Origin: Spirochaetales bacterium
GTDB taxonomy: Bacteria > Spirochaetota > Spirochaetia > Sphaerochaetales > Sphaerochaetaceae
DNA length: 64,000 nt
Direction of reading: 5' to 3'
Assembly: GCA_017614375.1 (NCBI GenBank)
Contig: JAGABZ010000001.1
Coordinates: 1-64,000 of the forward strand
Made by a program: the position numbers and the translations under genes. How positions within the stretch are numbered: the first letter of the stretch is position 1; every line of letters begins with the position of its first letter. Shown one piece after another: positions 30,640-40,136 of this stretch. The notes beneath the pieces are model-generated. The model was given only the letters and a program-made list of their open reading frames with translations, did not search any database and was not told the origin of the DNA.

Positions 30640-31689
30640 GTGAAGACGGTCGCAATCACAGGCGGGGGGACTTTGGGCCATATCGTCCCGGCCCTTGCTG
30701 TGGCGGCGGTCCTTCAGAAGCAGGGGCACAAGGTCTTTTGGATCGGAAGCAAAAAGGCGGATGAGAGGGCTTTTGTTGAGGCCCGCGGTATTGAGTTCTT
30801 TTCGATAAGTACTGGTAAATTCAGAAGATATTTTTCCATTCGGAATCTGGCGACTCCGTTTGCGGTCCTTGCCGGGTATTTCCAGGCCAGGGGGATTCTC
30901 AGGCGCATGAGGCCGGACGCGCTCTTTTCAAAGGGAGGCTTTGTCAGCGTTCCGCCTGCTCTGGCCGCCGCCGGTCTGGGGATTCCGGTCGTGACCCATG
31001 AGTCGGACGCCTCGTGCGGGCTGGCCACCAGAATCATTGCCCGGCGGGCCGATGTGGTCTGTCTGGGGCAGGAGCAGGCGCGGATAAAAACCGGCGCCAG
31101 AGTCGTCTTTACGGGAAACCCGATCCGCGCGGACCTGAATGAGGGTGACGGGGAGTCTTTCCGCCGGAAACTGGGCATCGGCGCGGATATGCCGGTGGTG
31201 CTGGTACTCGGAGGCAGCCAGGGGGCCAGGAGACTGAGCGATACTGTTGTTCAGGGGGCTTCACAGCTGACGGGGCGCTGCAGAATCGTGCTTCAGACCG
31301 GAAAGGGCAAACTCTATGATACTGTGCCGGAAGGGGTTATTCAGTTCGAGAGTTTTGATGCCGACTATGCCGATGCCCTGGCGGCGGCCGATGTGGTTGT
31401 CAGCAGGGCAGGGGCCGGGGCGGTGGCTGAACTCCAGGCGGCGGGAAAACCGGCGGTGCTGGTGCCTCTGGGGACCGATGCCTCCAGGGGGGACCAGATC
31501 CGCAACGCTGAACTGGCCGGGCAAAGGGGCACGGCGGTGGTCGCCGGATACGACGATGTGATTGAAAAAACGGCCGCTTTGGTCTATAATGATGTGTTGA
31601 GAAAGAAGTTCTCCGACTCCTGCGCCCGGGCCTGTATCAAAGACGGCGCGCAGGCAATAGCGGAGGTGGTCCTGGAGGTCTGCAAATGA
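30640..31689 (+). CDS. murG: UDP-GlcNAc:lipid I GlcNAc transferase MurG
   Basis: A 349-residue GT28 enzyme that converts lipid I to lipid II at the inner face of the membrane. Motifs: TGGGTLGHIVPAL, SKGGFVSVPPALAAAGLGIPVVTHESD and LVLGGSQGARRLSD, with SRAGAGAVAELQAAGKPAVLVPL in the donor site. The start codon is GTG directly after the secA stop. It overlaps the CvpA gene by 4 bp. It is separated from the main wall cluster. Confidence 0.94.
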   Translation: MKTVAITGGGTLGHIVPALAVAAVLQKQGHKVFWIGSKKADERAFVEARGIEFFSISTGKFRRYFSIRNLATPFAVLAGYFQARGILRRMRPDALFSKGGFVSVPPALAAAGLGIPVVTHESDASCGLATRIIARRADVVCLGQEQARIKTGARVVFTGNPIRADLNEGDGESFRRKLGIGADMPVVLVLGGSQGARRLSDTVVQGASQLTGRCRIVLQTGKGKLYDTVPEGVIQFESFDADYADALAAADVVVSRAGAGAVAELQAAGKPAVLVPLGTDASRGDQIRNAELAGQRGTAVVAGYDDVIEKTAALVYNDVLRKKFSDSCARACIKDGAQAIAEVVLEVCK

Positions 31690-32165
31690 CTTTTACTGTT
31701 GTCGACTGGGTTCTTGTGGGCATCGCTGCCATAGGCGGTATCGCGGCGGCGTTCAACGGCTTTTTCAACGAGATTGCCCGCAAACTCGGTGTCATCGTCG
31801 GAATCTATCTGGGACTTCTGTTCTGCTCACCCGTTACGGGGCTGCTGGTTGACGGGACGGGAATCAAATCCCGGCTTCTGGCCGTATTCATCTCGTATTT
31901 CGGGGTTTTCCTCATTGCCTACCTGCTGATAAGCTTCCTCGGGAATGTGCTCTCCAAACTCTTTGATGTATTGAAGATAGGTTTTATCGACAATCTGCTG
32001 GGCTTTTTCCTGGGCATCGTCGAGACCGTTCTGGTCCTCTCGTTTTTCTGGATGCTCATCTCTGCCCAGCCGGCCCTGAGCGCGGAGTTTTTCAATGACA
32101 GTTGGATCATCGAAAACATACTGGTTCCTGTGGGCGCGGTAGGAAAGGGAGTGTTCGGTGCTTGA
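31686..32165 (+). CDS. CvpA family membrane protein
   Basis: A 159-residue protein with four hydrophobic segments and the CvpA pattern VVDWVLVGIAAIGGIAAAFNGFFNEIARKLG near the N terminus and IDNLLGFFLGIVETVLVLS later. CvpA proteins affect colicin export and cell envelope stability in enterobacteria; the general role is uncertain. It overlaps murG by 4 bp and the next gene by 8 bp. Confidence 0.82.
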   Translation: MTFTVVDWVLVGIAAIGGIAAAFNGFFNEIARKLGVIVGIYLGLLFCSPVTGLLVDGTGIKSRLLAVFISYFGVFLIAYLLISFLGNVLSKLFDVLKIGFIDNLLGFFLGIVETVLVLSFFWMLISAQPALSAEFFNDSWIIENILVPVGAVGKGVFGA

Positions 32166-33243
32166 TAGGTTCAAGCTTTTACAGCCTGCCGTATCAGACC
32201 TCATTTCAAACCAGATTGCTTCGGACACCCTGCCTGAGGCGATGCTTTTCTGCGGCCCGGCTTATTCCGGGAAGCTTCTCTGCGCGTTTGAGATTGCCAA
32301 ACAGCTGGGCAGCGTGAAGGGCGGAAACTTCGTCCTTTGCACTCCGAGGGACTTCACTCCGTACCTTTCATTTGTACTCGAGCGTTTTTCCAAAAGCCCG
32401 TCCGTCACCAGCCGGGAGCTGCTTGTCGATGCCTTTGACTGCTATCTGGGGCGTTTCCACAGCACTCTGACGGCGGATGACAAGGCGGACGAGAAGTTCG
32501 AGCGCATCGGGGATCTTATCCAGCATCTTTCGACAGTGGGAACGGTTGAGGACGCCGCGGCCCTTTGCCGGACGCTGAGCGCCGACTACGCTGCGATTCT
32601 CAAGGCGGGCAGCCGGCGTCCGGACTCGCTGTCCATCGCCCAGGTGCGCTCGCTTCGAAACTGGCTCTATCTGACCAACACCGACCGCCAGCGGAAGGTG
32701 GTCGTCATCGACGCCATCGACGAGGCCAACGACGCTGTCAAGAACAGCCTGCTCAAGATGCTCGAGGAGCCTCCGCAGAGAGCTCTGTTCATCCTGATTT
32801 CAAAACATCCGCAGCGGGTGATGGCCACCATCCTCTCGCGCACCCGCCGTTGTTACTTCCCCCCGGTGCCTGCAAAGCATGTAAGGGCGTTTGCCTCCTA
32901 TATCGGAATCAACCTGCCTGAGGACGGCGAATATGGGCCGGATGAGCTCATCGAGGGCGGGGACGGTCAGGACTTGCCCGTAAAGGGTTTCTTTGACGAG
33001 GGATACGACCTGATGCCGCTGATCAAGGCTTCGGACGACCCGGTGCAGCTCAGGGTGCTGTTCAGGGCTCTGACCGCGGAGGTCCGGCGCCTGGGCAACG
33101 AGGGCAGAATCGGTGAGAACCGGTGCGCGCAGTGGATCGGCAGAATCAACGAAGCGGCCAACCGGTGCGAGGTTTACAACCAGAACCCGAGACTGGCAAT
33201 CCAGGGGCTGTTCTTCAGCATAGGCGGGGGCAGGCAGGGATGA
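32158..33243 (+). CDS. DNA polymerase III clamp-loader subunit (delta'/DnaX-like)
   Basis: A 361-residue AAA+-like protein. It has ALFCGPAYSGKLL-type P-loop text (LFCGPAYSGKLLCA, Thr replaced), RKVVVIDAIDEANDAVKNSLLKMLEEPP and FILISKHPQRVMATILSRTRR, the sensor-1/SRC region of clamp loaders. The altered P-loop and absence of a zinc module suggest delta' rather than gamma/tau. The start is GTG 32158. An exact 22-bp motif lies at about residue 268, outside conserved text. It overlaps the histidine kinase gene by 4 bp. Confidence 0.8.
   Translation: MLDRFKLLQPAVSDLISNQIASDTLPEAMLFCGPAYSGKLLCAFEIAKQLGSVKGGNFVLCTPRDFTPYLSFVLERFSKSPSVTSRELLVDAFDCYLGRFHSTLTADDKADEKFERIGDLIQHLSTVGTVEDAAALCRTLSADYAAILKAGSRRPDSLSIAQVRSLRNWLYLTNTDRQRKVVVIDAIDEANDAVKNSLLKMLEEPPQRALFILISKHPQRVMATILSRTRRCYFPPVPAKHVRAFASYIGINLPEDGEYGPDELIEGGDGQDLPVKGFFDEGYDLMPLIKASDDPVQLRVLFRALTAEVRRLGNEGRIGENRCAQWIGRINEAANRCEVYNQNPRLAIQGLFFSIGGGRQG
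32959..32980 (+). repeat. Exact copy of the dispersed 22-bp motif, inside the clamp-loader gene
   Basis: GGGGAC followed by GGTCAGGACTTGCCCG. Codon phase 0, read as GDGQDLPV. Confidence 0.8.
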
Positions 33244-34472
33244 ACAGTTTTCTTCAGAAGGTAAGTGACAAGCTGGAGCGGATGAGTCCGGCTCAGATCA
33301 AGAAGCTTTTCGGCGACATGACCGAGTCGGTCGAGCTCCGTGACACTGTTCTTGATACGCTTGATGAGGGGCTGATTCTTCTGGATCGGCAGTGGCGGAT
33401 TGTCTACATGAACCGCGCTGTGGGTTCGCTCGTCGGACTGAATTACCGTAACAACTGGCTGGGACGAAAGATAGATTCACAGCTGGTGGACAGCGACATA
33501 ACGGATTTCCTTTATTCGGTGCTGCGCACTCCTGCCGGACGCGACGAGGGCACAAAGGAGTTCAACTACAGCAAGGGTGACGGTGTCAAAATCATCCGGG
33601 TGACGGTGGCCAAAGGCTTTACCATGTTCAAAGGAAAGGCCTGCGACCTGGTCCGCATCAGCGACATAACAAAGGAGCGGCTGGAGGAGAACAGGTTGCG
33701 CCGGAGCGAGAGCCTGGCCCAGATGACAACGATGGCCGCCGGGGTTGCCCATGAAATCAAGAACCCTCTCGGCTCGATAAGCATCTATCTGCAGCTTCTG
33801 CGCCGCGAATTCCAGAAGAAAAAGGCACTGACCGGGGAACAGGCGGAGAAGTACCTCGGGGTCATAGGGGAGGAGATCGAGCGGCTGAATTCGATTGTCG
33901 TCGATTTTCTGTTCGCCGTGCGGCCGCTGAACGCCGACATGCGCAAGGAGGACGTCAACGCCCTGGTCAAAGAGACTGCCTGCTTTGCGGAGCCAGAGAC
34001 CAAACAGGCAGGCATCAGGCTTGAACTGAAGTTGGACAAGGGCCTGCCGCCGCTGAATCTGGACCGTTCTCTGTTCAGACAGGCGGCTCTGAACCTGATC
34101 AAAAACTCCGTCCAGGCCATCTCAAGCGCCGCTGAAAACGACGGACGTCAGGGAGTGATCGGCATCGAGACGAGGTTGAGAAACGACTGGGTCGACGTGG
34201 TATTCACCGACAACGGATGCGGAATCCCGGAGGAAAGCCTTTCTAAGGTGTTCGAGCCTTACTATACTACAAAGGAAACAGGTACCGGTCTGGGGCTGAC
34301 GATTCTGTTCAAGATCATCAAGGAGCACCGGGGGGACCTGAATGTGATGTCCAAGGTGGGCGAGGGGACGAGTTTCGTCCTGTCATTCCCTGTTCCCGCG
34401 GACGAGAGAATGAAAATCGGTTACAAGGGGCCTTCGGAGGGTGCCTATGAAGCGGACGATACTGATAGCTGA
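33240..34472 (+). CDS. NtrB/AtoS-like sensor histidine kinase
   Basis: A 410-residue soluble kinase with no membrane segment. Residues 35-140 form a PAS domain (LDTLDEGLILLDRQWRIVYMNRAVG). The HisKA box is AAGVAHEIKNPLGS with His171. The ATPase part has N box NLIKNSVQAIS, DNGCGIPEE and GTGLGLTI. It should phosphorylate the NtrC-type regulator next to it, whose gene it overlaps by 26 bp. The start ATG 33240 overlaps the stop of the previous gene. The signal is unknown; a cytosolic ligand is likely. Confidence 0.9.
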   Translation: MNSFLQKVSDKLERMSPAQIKKLFGDMTESVELRDTVLDTLDEGLILLDRQWRIVYMNRAVGSLVGLNYRNNWLGRKIDSQLVDSDITDFLYSVLRTPAGRDEGTKEFNYSKGDGVKIIRVTVAKGFTMFKGKACDLVRISDITKERLEENRLRRSESLAQMTTMAAGVAHEIKNPLGSISIYLQLLRREFQKKKALTGEQAEKYLGVIGEEIERLNSIVVDFLFAVRPLNADMRKEDVNALVKETACFAEPETKQAGIRLELKLDKGLPPLNLDRSLFRQAALNLIKNSVQAISSAAENDGRQGVIGIETRLRNDWVDVVFTDNGCGIPEESLSKVFEPYYTTKETGTGLGLTILFKIIKEHRGDLNVMSKVGEGTSFVLSFPVPADERMKIGYKGPSEGAYEADDTDS

Positions 34473-35793
34473 CGACGAGCGTAACATCCGGGAGGGACTT
34501 GCCCTGGCGCTGGAGGACTACAACTGCATTCTCGCCGCCGACGGGAAAGAGGCCTGGACCAAGGTGAACGAGAACCACGTGGATCTCGTCATAACCGACC
34601 TCAGGATGCCCGGTCTGTCCGGTGACGAGCTTTTAAAGAAGATCAACAGCACCTATCCGACCATCCCCGTCGTGGTGCTGACCGGTCACGGGACGGTGGA
34701 GTCTGCTGTTGAGTCCATGCGCAACGGCGCCGTGGATTTCCTTACCAAGCCTGTAAATATAGACCATCTGAACCTGCTGGTGAAGCGGACTTTCGACAAT
34801 CTGGAACTGATTGAGCGCAACAGTGCCCTTACAAGGGAACTTGAGCAGATCAAGGGCCGGCAGACGGATACTGGAATCATCGGAAACAGCGCCCCTGTGC
34901 GACGGATGATGGATATCATCAGGCAGGTCGCCCCGAGCGACACATCGGTCCTGATTACCGGCGAAAGCGGCACGGGCAAGGAACTGGTCGCCGATGCCCT
35001 GCACAACCTCTCATCCCGCAGCAACGGACCGCTTGTCAAGGTCAACTGCAGCGCCCTGGCGGAGACTCTGCTTGAAAGCGAGCTTTTCGGACATGAAAAA
35101 GGGGCCTTCACCGGCGCCATCTCACAGAAAAAAGGCCGCTTCGAACTGGCCGACGGGGGGACTATCTTTCTCGATGAAATCGGGGAGGTCAGCCCGGCGG
35201 TGCAGGTGAAGATTCTCCGGGTGCTTCAGGAAAAGCAGTTCGAGCGGGTCGGGGGTGAAAAGACCCTCAACGTCGATGTCCGCATCATAGCCGCGACGAA
35301 CCGCAATCTGGAGGAGGAAATCAGGCTGGGCCGTTTCCGCGAGGATCTGTACTACCGCCTGAACGTAGTTTCAATCAAGGTTCCGCCGCTTCGCGAGCGC
35401 AAGGACGATATCCTGCTGCTCTCGACTGAATTCCTCAAGCGCTTCAGTGAGCGCAACGGCAGGGAGATTGAGGGCTTTTCCGCCCGGGCGAAATCACTTC
35501 TGTACAAATACGACTGGCCGGGCAATATCCGGGAACTTCAGAACTGCGTGGAAAGCGCCGTGGTCATGTCCCGCGGCAGTGTTATTGATGTCGCAGACCT
35601 GCCTCCCAGAATCCGCGGAACGGCTGAAGGGGAGAGCTTCATAATGGTTCCCGTCGGTTCCACCCTGTCCCAGGCCGAGAGGATTGTCATCGAGTCCACC
35701 CTGGCCGGAAACAGGGGAAACAAAACCAAGGCTGCCGAAATCCTGGGAATCGGACGAAAGACCCTGCTTAGGAAACTCAGCGAGAATGAGTGA
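34447..35793 (+). CDS. NtrC-family sigma-54 activator
   Basis: A 448-residue response regulator: receiver domain with phosphoacceptor Asp51 (LVITDLRMPG), central AAA+ domain with GESGTGKE, the sigma-54 contact loop GAFTGA and FLDEIGE, and a C-terminal Fis-type helix-turn-helix (NKTKAAEILGIGRKTLLRKL). It must work with RpoN. ATG 34447 is chosen because GGAGG ends 6 bases before it. A consensus -24/-12 promoter at 39188 in this window is a candidate target. Confidence 0.93.
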   Translation: MKRTILIADDERNIREGLALALEDYNCILAADGKEAWTKVNENHVDLVITDLRMPGLSGDELLKKINSTYPTIPVVVLTGHGTVESAVESMRNGAVDFLTKPVNIDHLNLLVKRTFDNLELIERNSALTRELEQIKGRQTDTGIIGNSAPVRRMMDIIRQVAPSDTSVLITGESGTGKELVADALHNLSSRSNGPLVKVNCSALAETLLESELFGHEKGAFTGAISQKKGRFELADGGTIFLDEIGEVSPAVQVKILRVLQEKQFERVGGEKTLNVDVRIIAATNRNLEEEIRLGRFREDLYYRLNVVSIKVPPLRERKDDILLLSTEFLKRFSERNGREIEGFSARAKSLLYKYDWPGNIRELQNCVESAVVMSRGSVIDVADLPPRIRGTAEGESFIMVPVGSTLSQAERIVIESTLAGNRGNKTKAAEILGIGRKTLLRKLSENE

Positions 35794-38618: not shown

Positions 38619-38636
38619 ACAGGCGTTGAGGTGAGA

Positions 38637-39071
38637 ATGAGCTGCCTGCCCTGTATTTGCGAAAAGAAAGCCTATGACCGGTTCTTTTATGAACTGGCGG
38701 GTTCGTTTTTCAGGGACGGGGATTTGCCCAACGCGCTTCAATGCTACTGCGACGCTTTTCTGGTCCGGGCTTCGGAGCCGGATGTAAGTCAGGACTGGAT
38801 TACGTTTTACAGCGTGCAGTTCACTTCCTATCTGCTGGGCAAACGCAGGCCGGAGGTGCTTTTCCCGGAGGGGGATATGGTCTATGACCTGATCCGGGAC
38901 AGGTGGCTGGAGATTAGAAAGGACCTGGAGTCTTCGCCATTCGCCGTGCGGGACATGATGGAGTGGGCCAAGACGGTACGGATTGACTTTCCGTTTACTC
39001 CCTCGGATCTGGATTTTCCGGGTCAGGATGACACGGTTGGGGATTTGTCCGTCTCCACTGGGTCAAAATGA
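38637..39071 (+). CDS. Hypothetical protein, 144 residues
   Basis: I do not recognise this protein. It is soluble, starts MSCLPCICEKKAYDRFFYELAGSFF with three early cysteines, and has a TPR-like helical stretch (GDLPNALQCYCDAFLVRAS). ATG 38637 has GAGG 5 bases upstream; GTG 38631 is the alternative. Its last 17 codons lie inside repeat array G, so the C terminus (GQDDTVGDLSVSTGSK) is probably derived from the repeat. It stands directly before the sigma-factor gene, but a sigma-54-type promoter separates them. Confidence 0.65.
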   Translation: MSCLPCICEKKAYDRFFYELAGSFFRDGDLPNALQCYCDAFLVRASEPDVSQDWITFYSVQFTSYLLGKRRPEVLFPEGDMVYDLIRDRWLEIRKDLESSPFAVRDMMEWAKTVRIDFPFTPSDLDFPGQDDTVGDLSVSTGSK

Positions 39072-39139
39072 CACAGTTTTTAGTTGTGCTTACCATTTAG
39101 GGTCAAACTGACCCGTTTTCTTTGTCTTTTCAGTGACGC
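39020..39139. repeat. Repeat array G: three units with a 40-bp step
   Basis: GGGTCA occurs at 39020, 39060 and 39100, followed in each unit by ATGACAC, ATGACAC or CTGACCC. The third forms the inverted repeat GGGTCAaacTGACCC. The array covers the 3' end of the hypothetical gene and part of the leader region of the sigma gene. Confidence 0.65.
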
Positions 39140-39187: not shown

Positions 39188-39204
39188 TTGGCATGCATGT
39201 TGCA
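39188..39204 (+). promoter_or_regulatory. Sigma-54 (-24/-12) promoter
   Basis: TTGGCATG, four bases, TTGCA: a full match to the YTGGCAYG-N4-TTGCW consensus, with GG (39190-39191) and GC (39202-39203) separated by exactly 10 bases. The predicted start point is near 39215, just before the sigma-factor gene. Confidence 0.75.
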
Positions 39205-39227
39205 ACAAAAAGGCCATGGAGCTTTCA

Positions 39228-40070
39228 ATGATCAATACCAATCAGGCAGAATTCAACCATCTTTCGATGTACCTTCGCGAGATTGACCGCATTCCTTTGC
39301 TTCAGAGGGAGGAGGAGTATGATCTGGCGCGCAGGGCGGCAAAAGGTGACATGGTTGCCAGAAACAGGTTGGTTGAGGCCAATCTGAGGTTCGTTGTCTC
39401 TATCGCAAAGCAGTACCAGAACAGGGGAATCCCCCTTTCGGACCTGATTGACGAGGGAAACATCGGACTGATGACCGCTGTGGAGAAGTTCGACCCGGAC
39501 AAGGGTTATCATTTCATAAGCTATGCCGTATGGTGGATCCGCCAGTCTATCATGAAGGCCATTGCCGAAAAGACCAGGATGATCCGCCTGCCGATGAACA
39601 AGAACGCCGACCTGACACTGGTTCAGAAGGCCGCTTCCGCGATTGAGCAGGAAACGGGAGAGAGCGCCGGTGTTTCGGATATTGCAAAGCGTTCCGGCTT
39701 GGATGAAAAGAGCGTGAAGGCCCTCTTGTCCTACGCTTCGGATGTTTCATCGCTGAATGCCCCGGTTGCCGGTTCGACCGATACCGAGTTCGGTGAGTTC
39801 ATCGAGAGCGAGCTGCCCCAACCGCAGGAGGTCCTGGAGAAGGACGACATGCGCAGCCAGGTCGCCAAGGCTCTGACCAGGCTCTGCCCGAAGGAGAGGG
39901 AAGTGCTGGAGTTGCGCTTCGGGTTCAACAACCACGAACCAATGTCCCTGAAAGACATCGGGGATATCTACAGCCTGACCAAGGAAAGAATCCGCCAGAT
40001 TGAGAAAAAGGCCATGTCAAACCTGGCCGCGGACCCGGAATTCGCCGCGCTGAGCGGTTTTGTGGCCTGA
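39228..40070 (+). CDS. Sigma-70 family sigma factor (group 2, RpoS/RpoD-like)
   Basis: A 280-residue sigma factor. Region 1.2 is LSMYLREIDRIPLLQREEEYDLA; 2.1-2.4 run RNRLVEANLRFVVSIAKQY, GNIGLMTAVEKFDPDKGYHFISYAVWWIRQSI; region 4 has KEREVLELRFGF and SLTKERIRQIEKKAM. There is no long region 1.1, so it is not the primary factor. ATG 39228 has GGAG 6 bases upstream; ATG 39216 is in frame and would be almost leaderless from the -24/-12 promoter. A role in a stationary, stress or host programme is inferred. Confidence 0.9.
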   Translation: MINTNQAEFNHLSMYLREIDRIPLLQREEEYDLARRAAKGDMVARNRLVEANLRFVVSIAKQYQNRGIPLSDLIDEGNIGLMTAVEKFDPDKGYHFISYAVWWIRQSIMKAIAEKTRMIRLPMNKNADLTLVQKAASAIEQETGESAGVSDIAKRSGLDEKSVKALLSYASDVSSLNAPVAGSTDTEFGEFIESELPQPQEVLEKDDMRSQVAKALTRLCPKEREVLELRFGFNNHEPMSLKDIGDIYSLTKERIRQIEKKAMSNLAADPEFAALSGFVA

Positions 40071-40110: not shown

Positions 40111-40136
40111 GCTCCCGCTTTCCGGGAGCTTTTTTT
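40111..40136 (+). terminator. Rho-independent terminator of the sigma-factor gene
   Basis: GCTCCCG/CGGGAGC stem with a 5-base loop, then seven T. Confidence 0.88.

Follow-up and report, generated by a model that had tools for sequence, protein, structure and literature searches.

A predicted sigma-54 promoter with phased tandem palindromes upstream of an RpoS-like group-2 sigma factor gene in Spirochaetia

Introduction

At NtrC-type enhancer promoters, such as that of Escherichia coli glnA, tandem palindromes lie about 100-200 bp upstream and are bound by activators that carry a Fis-type HTH and an AAA+ domain with the GAFTGA motif. In spirochaetes, a cascade from sigma-54 to a group-2 sigma factor is already known as a kind from Borrelia burgdorferi, where it consists of HK2, Rrp2, RpoN and RpoS. 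Rrp2 is essential in the Lyme spirochaete and is puzzling because no enhancer is needed: it neither binds nor requires the 238 bp upstream of rpoS (PMC1976401), and it activates in an enhancer-independent manner (PMC1976401; Blevins et al. 2009 as cited in PMC12472547). The kinase HK2 has been described with a putative PAS domain (PMC7649798), and in culture Rrp2 is phosphorylated even without it (PMC7649798, PMC1976401). In Treponema denticola, the PAS domain of Hpk2 senses oxygen, and Rrp2 is a predicted sigma-54 activator that remains unstudied (PMC12070737).

Here we analyzed a stretch of 64,000 nucleotides (hereafter the window) from contig 1 of a genome that measures 1.54 Mb, is 98% complete and was placed in the family Sphaerochaetaceae. 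Judged by the sigma factor studied here, its nearest named relatives are metagenome-derived Spirochaetales and Sphaerochaetaceae, Pleomorphochaeta among them. Orthologues of its group-2 sigma factor gene were found in 135 of 139 genomes of the family, and the upstream regions of 110 of them were read. The comparison was then extended to the class Spirochaetia.

Gene organization in the window

The initial annotation placed a GAFTGA-bearing NtrC-type activator and its kinase at 33240-35793, and both were found there by Pfam and in the open reading frames. The kinase gene (33240-34472, forward strand) encodes a PAS-HisKA-HATPase histidine kinase with 32% identity over 384 aa to Borrelia HK2. The activator gene (34447-35793, forward strand) encodes a protein with a receiver, an AAA+ domain with GAFTGA and a Fis-type HTH. 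The two are preceded on the same strand by a murG-cvpA-holB block (30640-33243), which is common to Borrelia (locus L310), giving the syntenic order murG-cvpA-holB-kinase-activator. With 54% identity and the same gene order, the resemblance of the activator to Borrelia Rrp2 claimed earlier proved to be one of orthology. The PAS kinase, by contrast, had been taken as a difference from Borrelia. This view could not be kept, since HK2 is a syntenic orthologue with a putative PAS domain (PMC7649798), although that domain fell below the Pfam cut-off in our profile search. T. denticola Hpk2-Rrp2 (TDE1970-TDE1969) corresponds to this two-component pair and likewise has a PAS kinase.

The sigma gene (39228-40070, forward strand) encodes a sigma-70 family factor with Pfam regions 1.2, 2, 3 and 4 and without region 1.1. 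Since the genome has a separate RpoD gene, besides two further sigma-70 family genes, the assignment to group 2 in the initial annotation was retained. The protein and its orthologues, hereafter family A (clade support 100/98), are RpoS-like; against the profile of proteobacterial RpoS (NCBIfam TIGR02394), however, the protein scored 269 bits, below the cut-off of 378.7. The start used in the initial annotation, 39216, was replaced. The ATG at 39228 appears to be the better start because a Shine-Dalgarno GGAG (39218-39221, forward strand) lies six bases upstream of it, transcription is predicted to start near 39215, and relatives share the GGAG-to-ATG layout. This ATG is about 13 nt from the predicted 5' end of the transcript. 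From the upstream start, the transcript would be leaderless. On the 3' side of the gene (40111-40136, forward strand), the hairpin GCTCCCG-CTTTC-CGGGAGC and a run of T behind it resemble a terminator.

A -24/-12 element, TTGGCATGCATGTTGCA, precedes the sigma gene at 39188-39204 on the forward strand. It reads TTGGCATG-CATG-TTGCA, with the GG-N10-GC spacing of sigma-54 promoters.

Tandem palindromes upstream of the element

While the element had been recognized earlier, tandem palindromes upstream of it had been missed. Three copies of the consensus TGKGTCA-WWW-TGACMCA were found in the window as predicted activator sites: site 1, GGGTCAGGATGACAC, at 39020-39034 (matrix score 19.6); site 2, GGGTCAAAATGACAC, at 39060-39074 (25.1); and site 3, GGGTCAAACTGACCC, a perfect palindrome, at 39100-39114 (20.8). 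Each is separated by 40 bp from the next. An exact search of the own genome for GGGTCA-N3-TGACMC returned these three copies and one further exact copy, which has a near copy 41 bp off. An uncharacterized open reading frame without a Pfam match lies between groES and the sigma gene (38631-39071), and its 3' end contains parts of sites 1 and 2 or all of them; G004 (L189) has a similar open reading frame upstream of its own sigma gene.

Within the family, exact GTCA-N3-TGAC was present at 66 of 110 loci, and spacers of 4 or 5 were found at none. The matrix detected sites at 105 of the 110 loci and in 3 of 106 control windows; among neighbouring pairs, 132 of 157 were exactly 40 bp apart. Since the palindrome was initially spotted by visual inspection and the matrix was fitted on the family data, only the class-wide test is independent. 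Outside the family, the family-trained matrix detected sites at 71 of 74 loci and in none of 73 controls, with the 40-bp spacing in 46 of 49 neighbouring pairs; over all neighbouring pairs, the exact spacing occurred in 178 of 206. The sites mostly lie 60-210 bp upstream of the sigma-54 element and do not overlap it.

The locus resembles the E. coli glnA type in its repeated upstream palindromes at looping distance, Fis-type HTH and GAFTGA-bearing AAA+ domain. It differs in the palindrome itself, in the strict 40-bp spacing throughout the class and in having a sigma factor gene as the target.

Proposed mechanism

On the strength of these sequence patterns and their conservation, and of the synteny, the rpoN gene, the second target and the covariation of sites and activator set out elsewhere in this text, we consider an enhancer-driven cascade from sigma-54 to a group-2 sigma factor to be the best explanation, with a probability of roughly 85%. 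The binding, phosphorylation, looping, sensed signal, regulon and stress role that it comprises are inferred. The HK2-type PAS kinase would phosphorylate the Rrp2-type activator, dimers of which would occupy the palindromes at 39020, 39060 and 39100 at the fixed 40-bp spacing. Once bound, the activator would assemble into a ring through its AAA+ domains and, by looping, reach the RpoN-RNA polymerase poised at the -24/-12 element. Opening of the promoter through ATP hydrolysis would lead to production of the sigma factor, which would in turn steer RNA polymerase to a stress regulon. At least one gene, hsp20, would be driven directly by the same activator. Since Rrp2 phosphorylation in Borrelia culture does not depend on HK2, phosphatase activity may be part of the role of the kinase.

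If this mechanism is correct, nearly all Spirochaetia would share the regulatory circuit, among them treponemes whose Rrp2 is unstudied, and it could be tested in harmless Sphaerochaeta-type species. For Rrp2, it would provide a likely binding site, a second target and an evolutionary setting. Our literature search, which had most subscription papers outside its reach, found no report of such an enhancer and none, outside Borrelia, of RpoN acting on this sigma factor. Nor did it find a target gene, promoter or binding site for the T. denticola pair, for which candidates are proposed here. In G161, a probable T. denticola-type genome, weak sites separated by 40 bp accompany a family-A sigma gene. 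Within the searchable literature, three things appear to be new: a phased enhancer found across the class, hsp20 as a co-target, and the probable paralogy of sigma factors described below.

hsp20 as a candidate second target

The further exact palindrome copy in the own genome is located upstream of an hsp20 gene (L123, 1458-2157), where the paired sites are 41 bp apart and accompanied by a sigma-54 element, TGGCACGGATTAAGCA. Scanning whole genomes of the family for the tandem pattern returned the sigma locus together with hsp20 in six genomes (G032, G034, G037, G041, G043 and G044), and each of the six hsp20 matches (L211, L213, L216 and L421-L423) had its own sigma-54 element. These matches support the sites independently, since hsp20 was not searched for. 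Other matches, namely L188, L205 and L206 and some coding-sequence-like ones in G017 and G023, were discarded for lack of a scored site or a sigma-54 element. In Borrelia, unlike here, rpoS is the sole sigma-54 promoter identified (PMC7649798).

Comparison with the Borrelia cascade

The locus could be a simple orthologue of the Borrelia Rrp2-RpoN-RpoS cascade and nothing more. The kinase and activator are indeed orthologous and in the same order, and a similar RpoN-type promoter precedes a group-2 sigma gene in both. In these respects, and in the presence of rpoN, the earlier proposal that the locus mirrors the Borrelia cascade is sound; its target, however, does not appear to be the counterpart of Borrelia RpoS. 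We had first assumed the two sigma factors to be orthologues, an assumption overturned by the tree and a survey of paralogues. Borrelia RpoS was not placed in the same group-2 clade as the window sigma factor, and joining Borrelia to family A gave an AU p of 0.066 with all rows and of 6e-5 without long branches. Moreover, a second group-2 family (family B) grouped with Borrelia RpoS, and eight genomes (G336, G356, G420, G171, G192, G346, G161 and G402) carry both families. It is likely that the window sigma factor and Borrelia RpoS belong to different clades, although this is unproven because Borrelia RpoS sits on a long branch. The relation of Borrelia RpoS to the RpoS-like factor found in other spirochaetes is probably one of paralogy.

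Three genomes (G156, G270 and G275) were taken to be Borreliaceae from gene order, and G211 to be Treponema pallidum from gene position. When the region upstream of Borrelia rpoS was scored, the -24/-12 element was present and Rrp2-type sites were not found, in contrast to the tandem 40-bp sites of the window. This is in line with the experiments of PMC1976401. In addition, the R that enhancer-bearing species have in the recognition helix is N in Borrelia Rrp2. With the two sigma genes in different clades and the sites missing from Borrelia, we regard simple orthology of the whole cascade as rather unlikely.

The family-B genes have sigma-54 elements scoring 12.6-18.7 and none of the Rrp2-type sites. 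Nine loci were assigned to this family (L431, L432, L434, L437, L439, L441, L442, L447 and L306), including Borrelia RpoS. G151 has family B only, and its activator has the helix LHNKI, as in Borrelia. Seven further loci (L436, L438, L440, L444-L446 and L448) form a third group-2-like family of 323-365 aa without sigma-54 elements.

Taken together, these observations slightly favour a history in which ancestral Spirochaetia ran two RpoN-driven group-2 sigma factors side by side: A, which had an Rrp2 enhancer phased at 40 bp and hsp20 genes as co-targets, and B, which lacked that enhancer. Borrelia would have lost A and kept B as its RpoS, while its Rrp2 lost the recognition arginine; T. pallidum would have kept A and lost the enhancer. 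If this history is true, the lost arginine would explain the enhancer independence of Borrelia Rrp2, and the well-studied Borrelia pathway would be a derived remnant rather than the prototype.

Assignment of the palindromes to the Rrp2 orthologue

The own genome encodes three NtrC-type AAA+ activators, all with DNA-binding helices. Because two of these are not the Rrp2 orthologue, assignment of the sites to the latter rests on co-occurrence, and either the response regulator L003 or the PspF-like L004 might bind them instead. The Rrp2 orthologue is nevertheless near-universal in the family, and its gene usually shares the strand of the sigma gene at a distance of about 3-10 kb (e.g. in G124, G011 and G110). 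The family orthologues share about 57% identity or more, against 48% or less for other activators, which leaves a clear gap. Five family genomes (G018, G032, G048, G096 and G130) keep the sites although the orthologue is their sole NtrC-type match at the cut-off.

The recognition helix, GRKTLxRKL, also varies together with the sites. Its arginine is kept in all site-bearing genomes compared except G402, which has T and yet weak sites (15.8 and 10.2). It is replaced by K in G017, Q in G419 and L in G211, all of which have a family-A sigma gene and no sites. The association of arginine with sites gave a Fisher p of 2.6e-4, a statistic that ignores the relatedness of the genomes. Three genomes of genus g22 have neither an Rrp2 orthologue nor the sites. 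This covariation suggests that the predicted sites belong to Rrp2.

The PspF-like gene lies between two pspA-like genes in a phage-shock-like region (contig 13, 312.6-315.6 kb; L004, L130 and L131). Both pspA-like genes are preceded by an exact sigma-54 element, and upstream of it there is no site of the Rrp2 type, which is a further argument against the PspF-like protein. Binding of the sites by another NtrC-type activator therefore seems improbable.

It is also conceivable that the palindromes are the target of an unrelated protein, either a repressor or a heat-shock regulator, by which the promoter is modulated, while the activator acts from solution as in Borrelia. A heat-shock gene, hsp20, is among the targets, and Borrelia Rrp2 needs no upstream DNA (PMC1976401). 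The sites, however, mostly lie at the usual enhancer distance and clear of the element, their exact 40-bp tandem spacing fits assembly of an oligomer, and they are missing from genomes that have lost the activator or carry an altered helix. We consider this reading even less probable than binding by another activator, and retain Rrp2 as the predicted ligand of the sites.

In genus g22, two loci (L116 and L117, from G136 and G138) have TGTGCA-N5-TGCACA in place of the usual palindrome, without an Rrp2 orthologue. A receiver-less AAA+ activator adjoins the sigma gene in G136, and the circuit may have been rewired in this genus.

Conservation of the sigma-54 element

The motif by itself is weak evidence for a promoter: with up to two mismatches, it occurs 19 times in the window against 26 expected, no excess over chance. 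Exact TGGCAYN5TTGCW, on the other hand, occurs at only 5 sites in the 1.54-Mb genome, the element at 39188-39204 among them. The significance of this element comes from its position and conservation. A recognizable -24/-12 element was found at all 110 orthologous loci of the family, with a score of at least 14 within 100 nt upstream of the gene at 100 of them. At the same threshold, the controls gave no match on the reverse strand, 4 in 2200 dinucleotide shuffles and 1 in 1571 windows farther upstream. In about 40 other families of Spirochaetia, the element was found at 72 of 74 loci and in none of 73 control windows. Upstream of RpoD genes it was not found, with one borderline match (L304, 13.2).

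The consensus match with 10-base spacing reported in the initial annotation was thus borne out by direct reading and by conservation upstream of orthologues, which indicates that the element is real and functional. That it is a chance look-alike, with the gene transcribed from a sigma-70 promoter, can practically be dismissed, for despite the chance-level motif frequency in the window essentially all orthologues across the class have the element in this position and the controls are nearly empty. The own genome also contains rpoN, as one intact copy with the AID, CBD and DBD domains, and rpoN was found in 381 of 395 genomes of the class.
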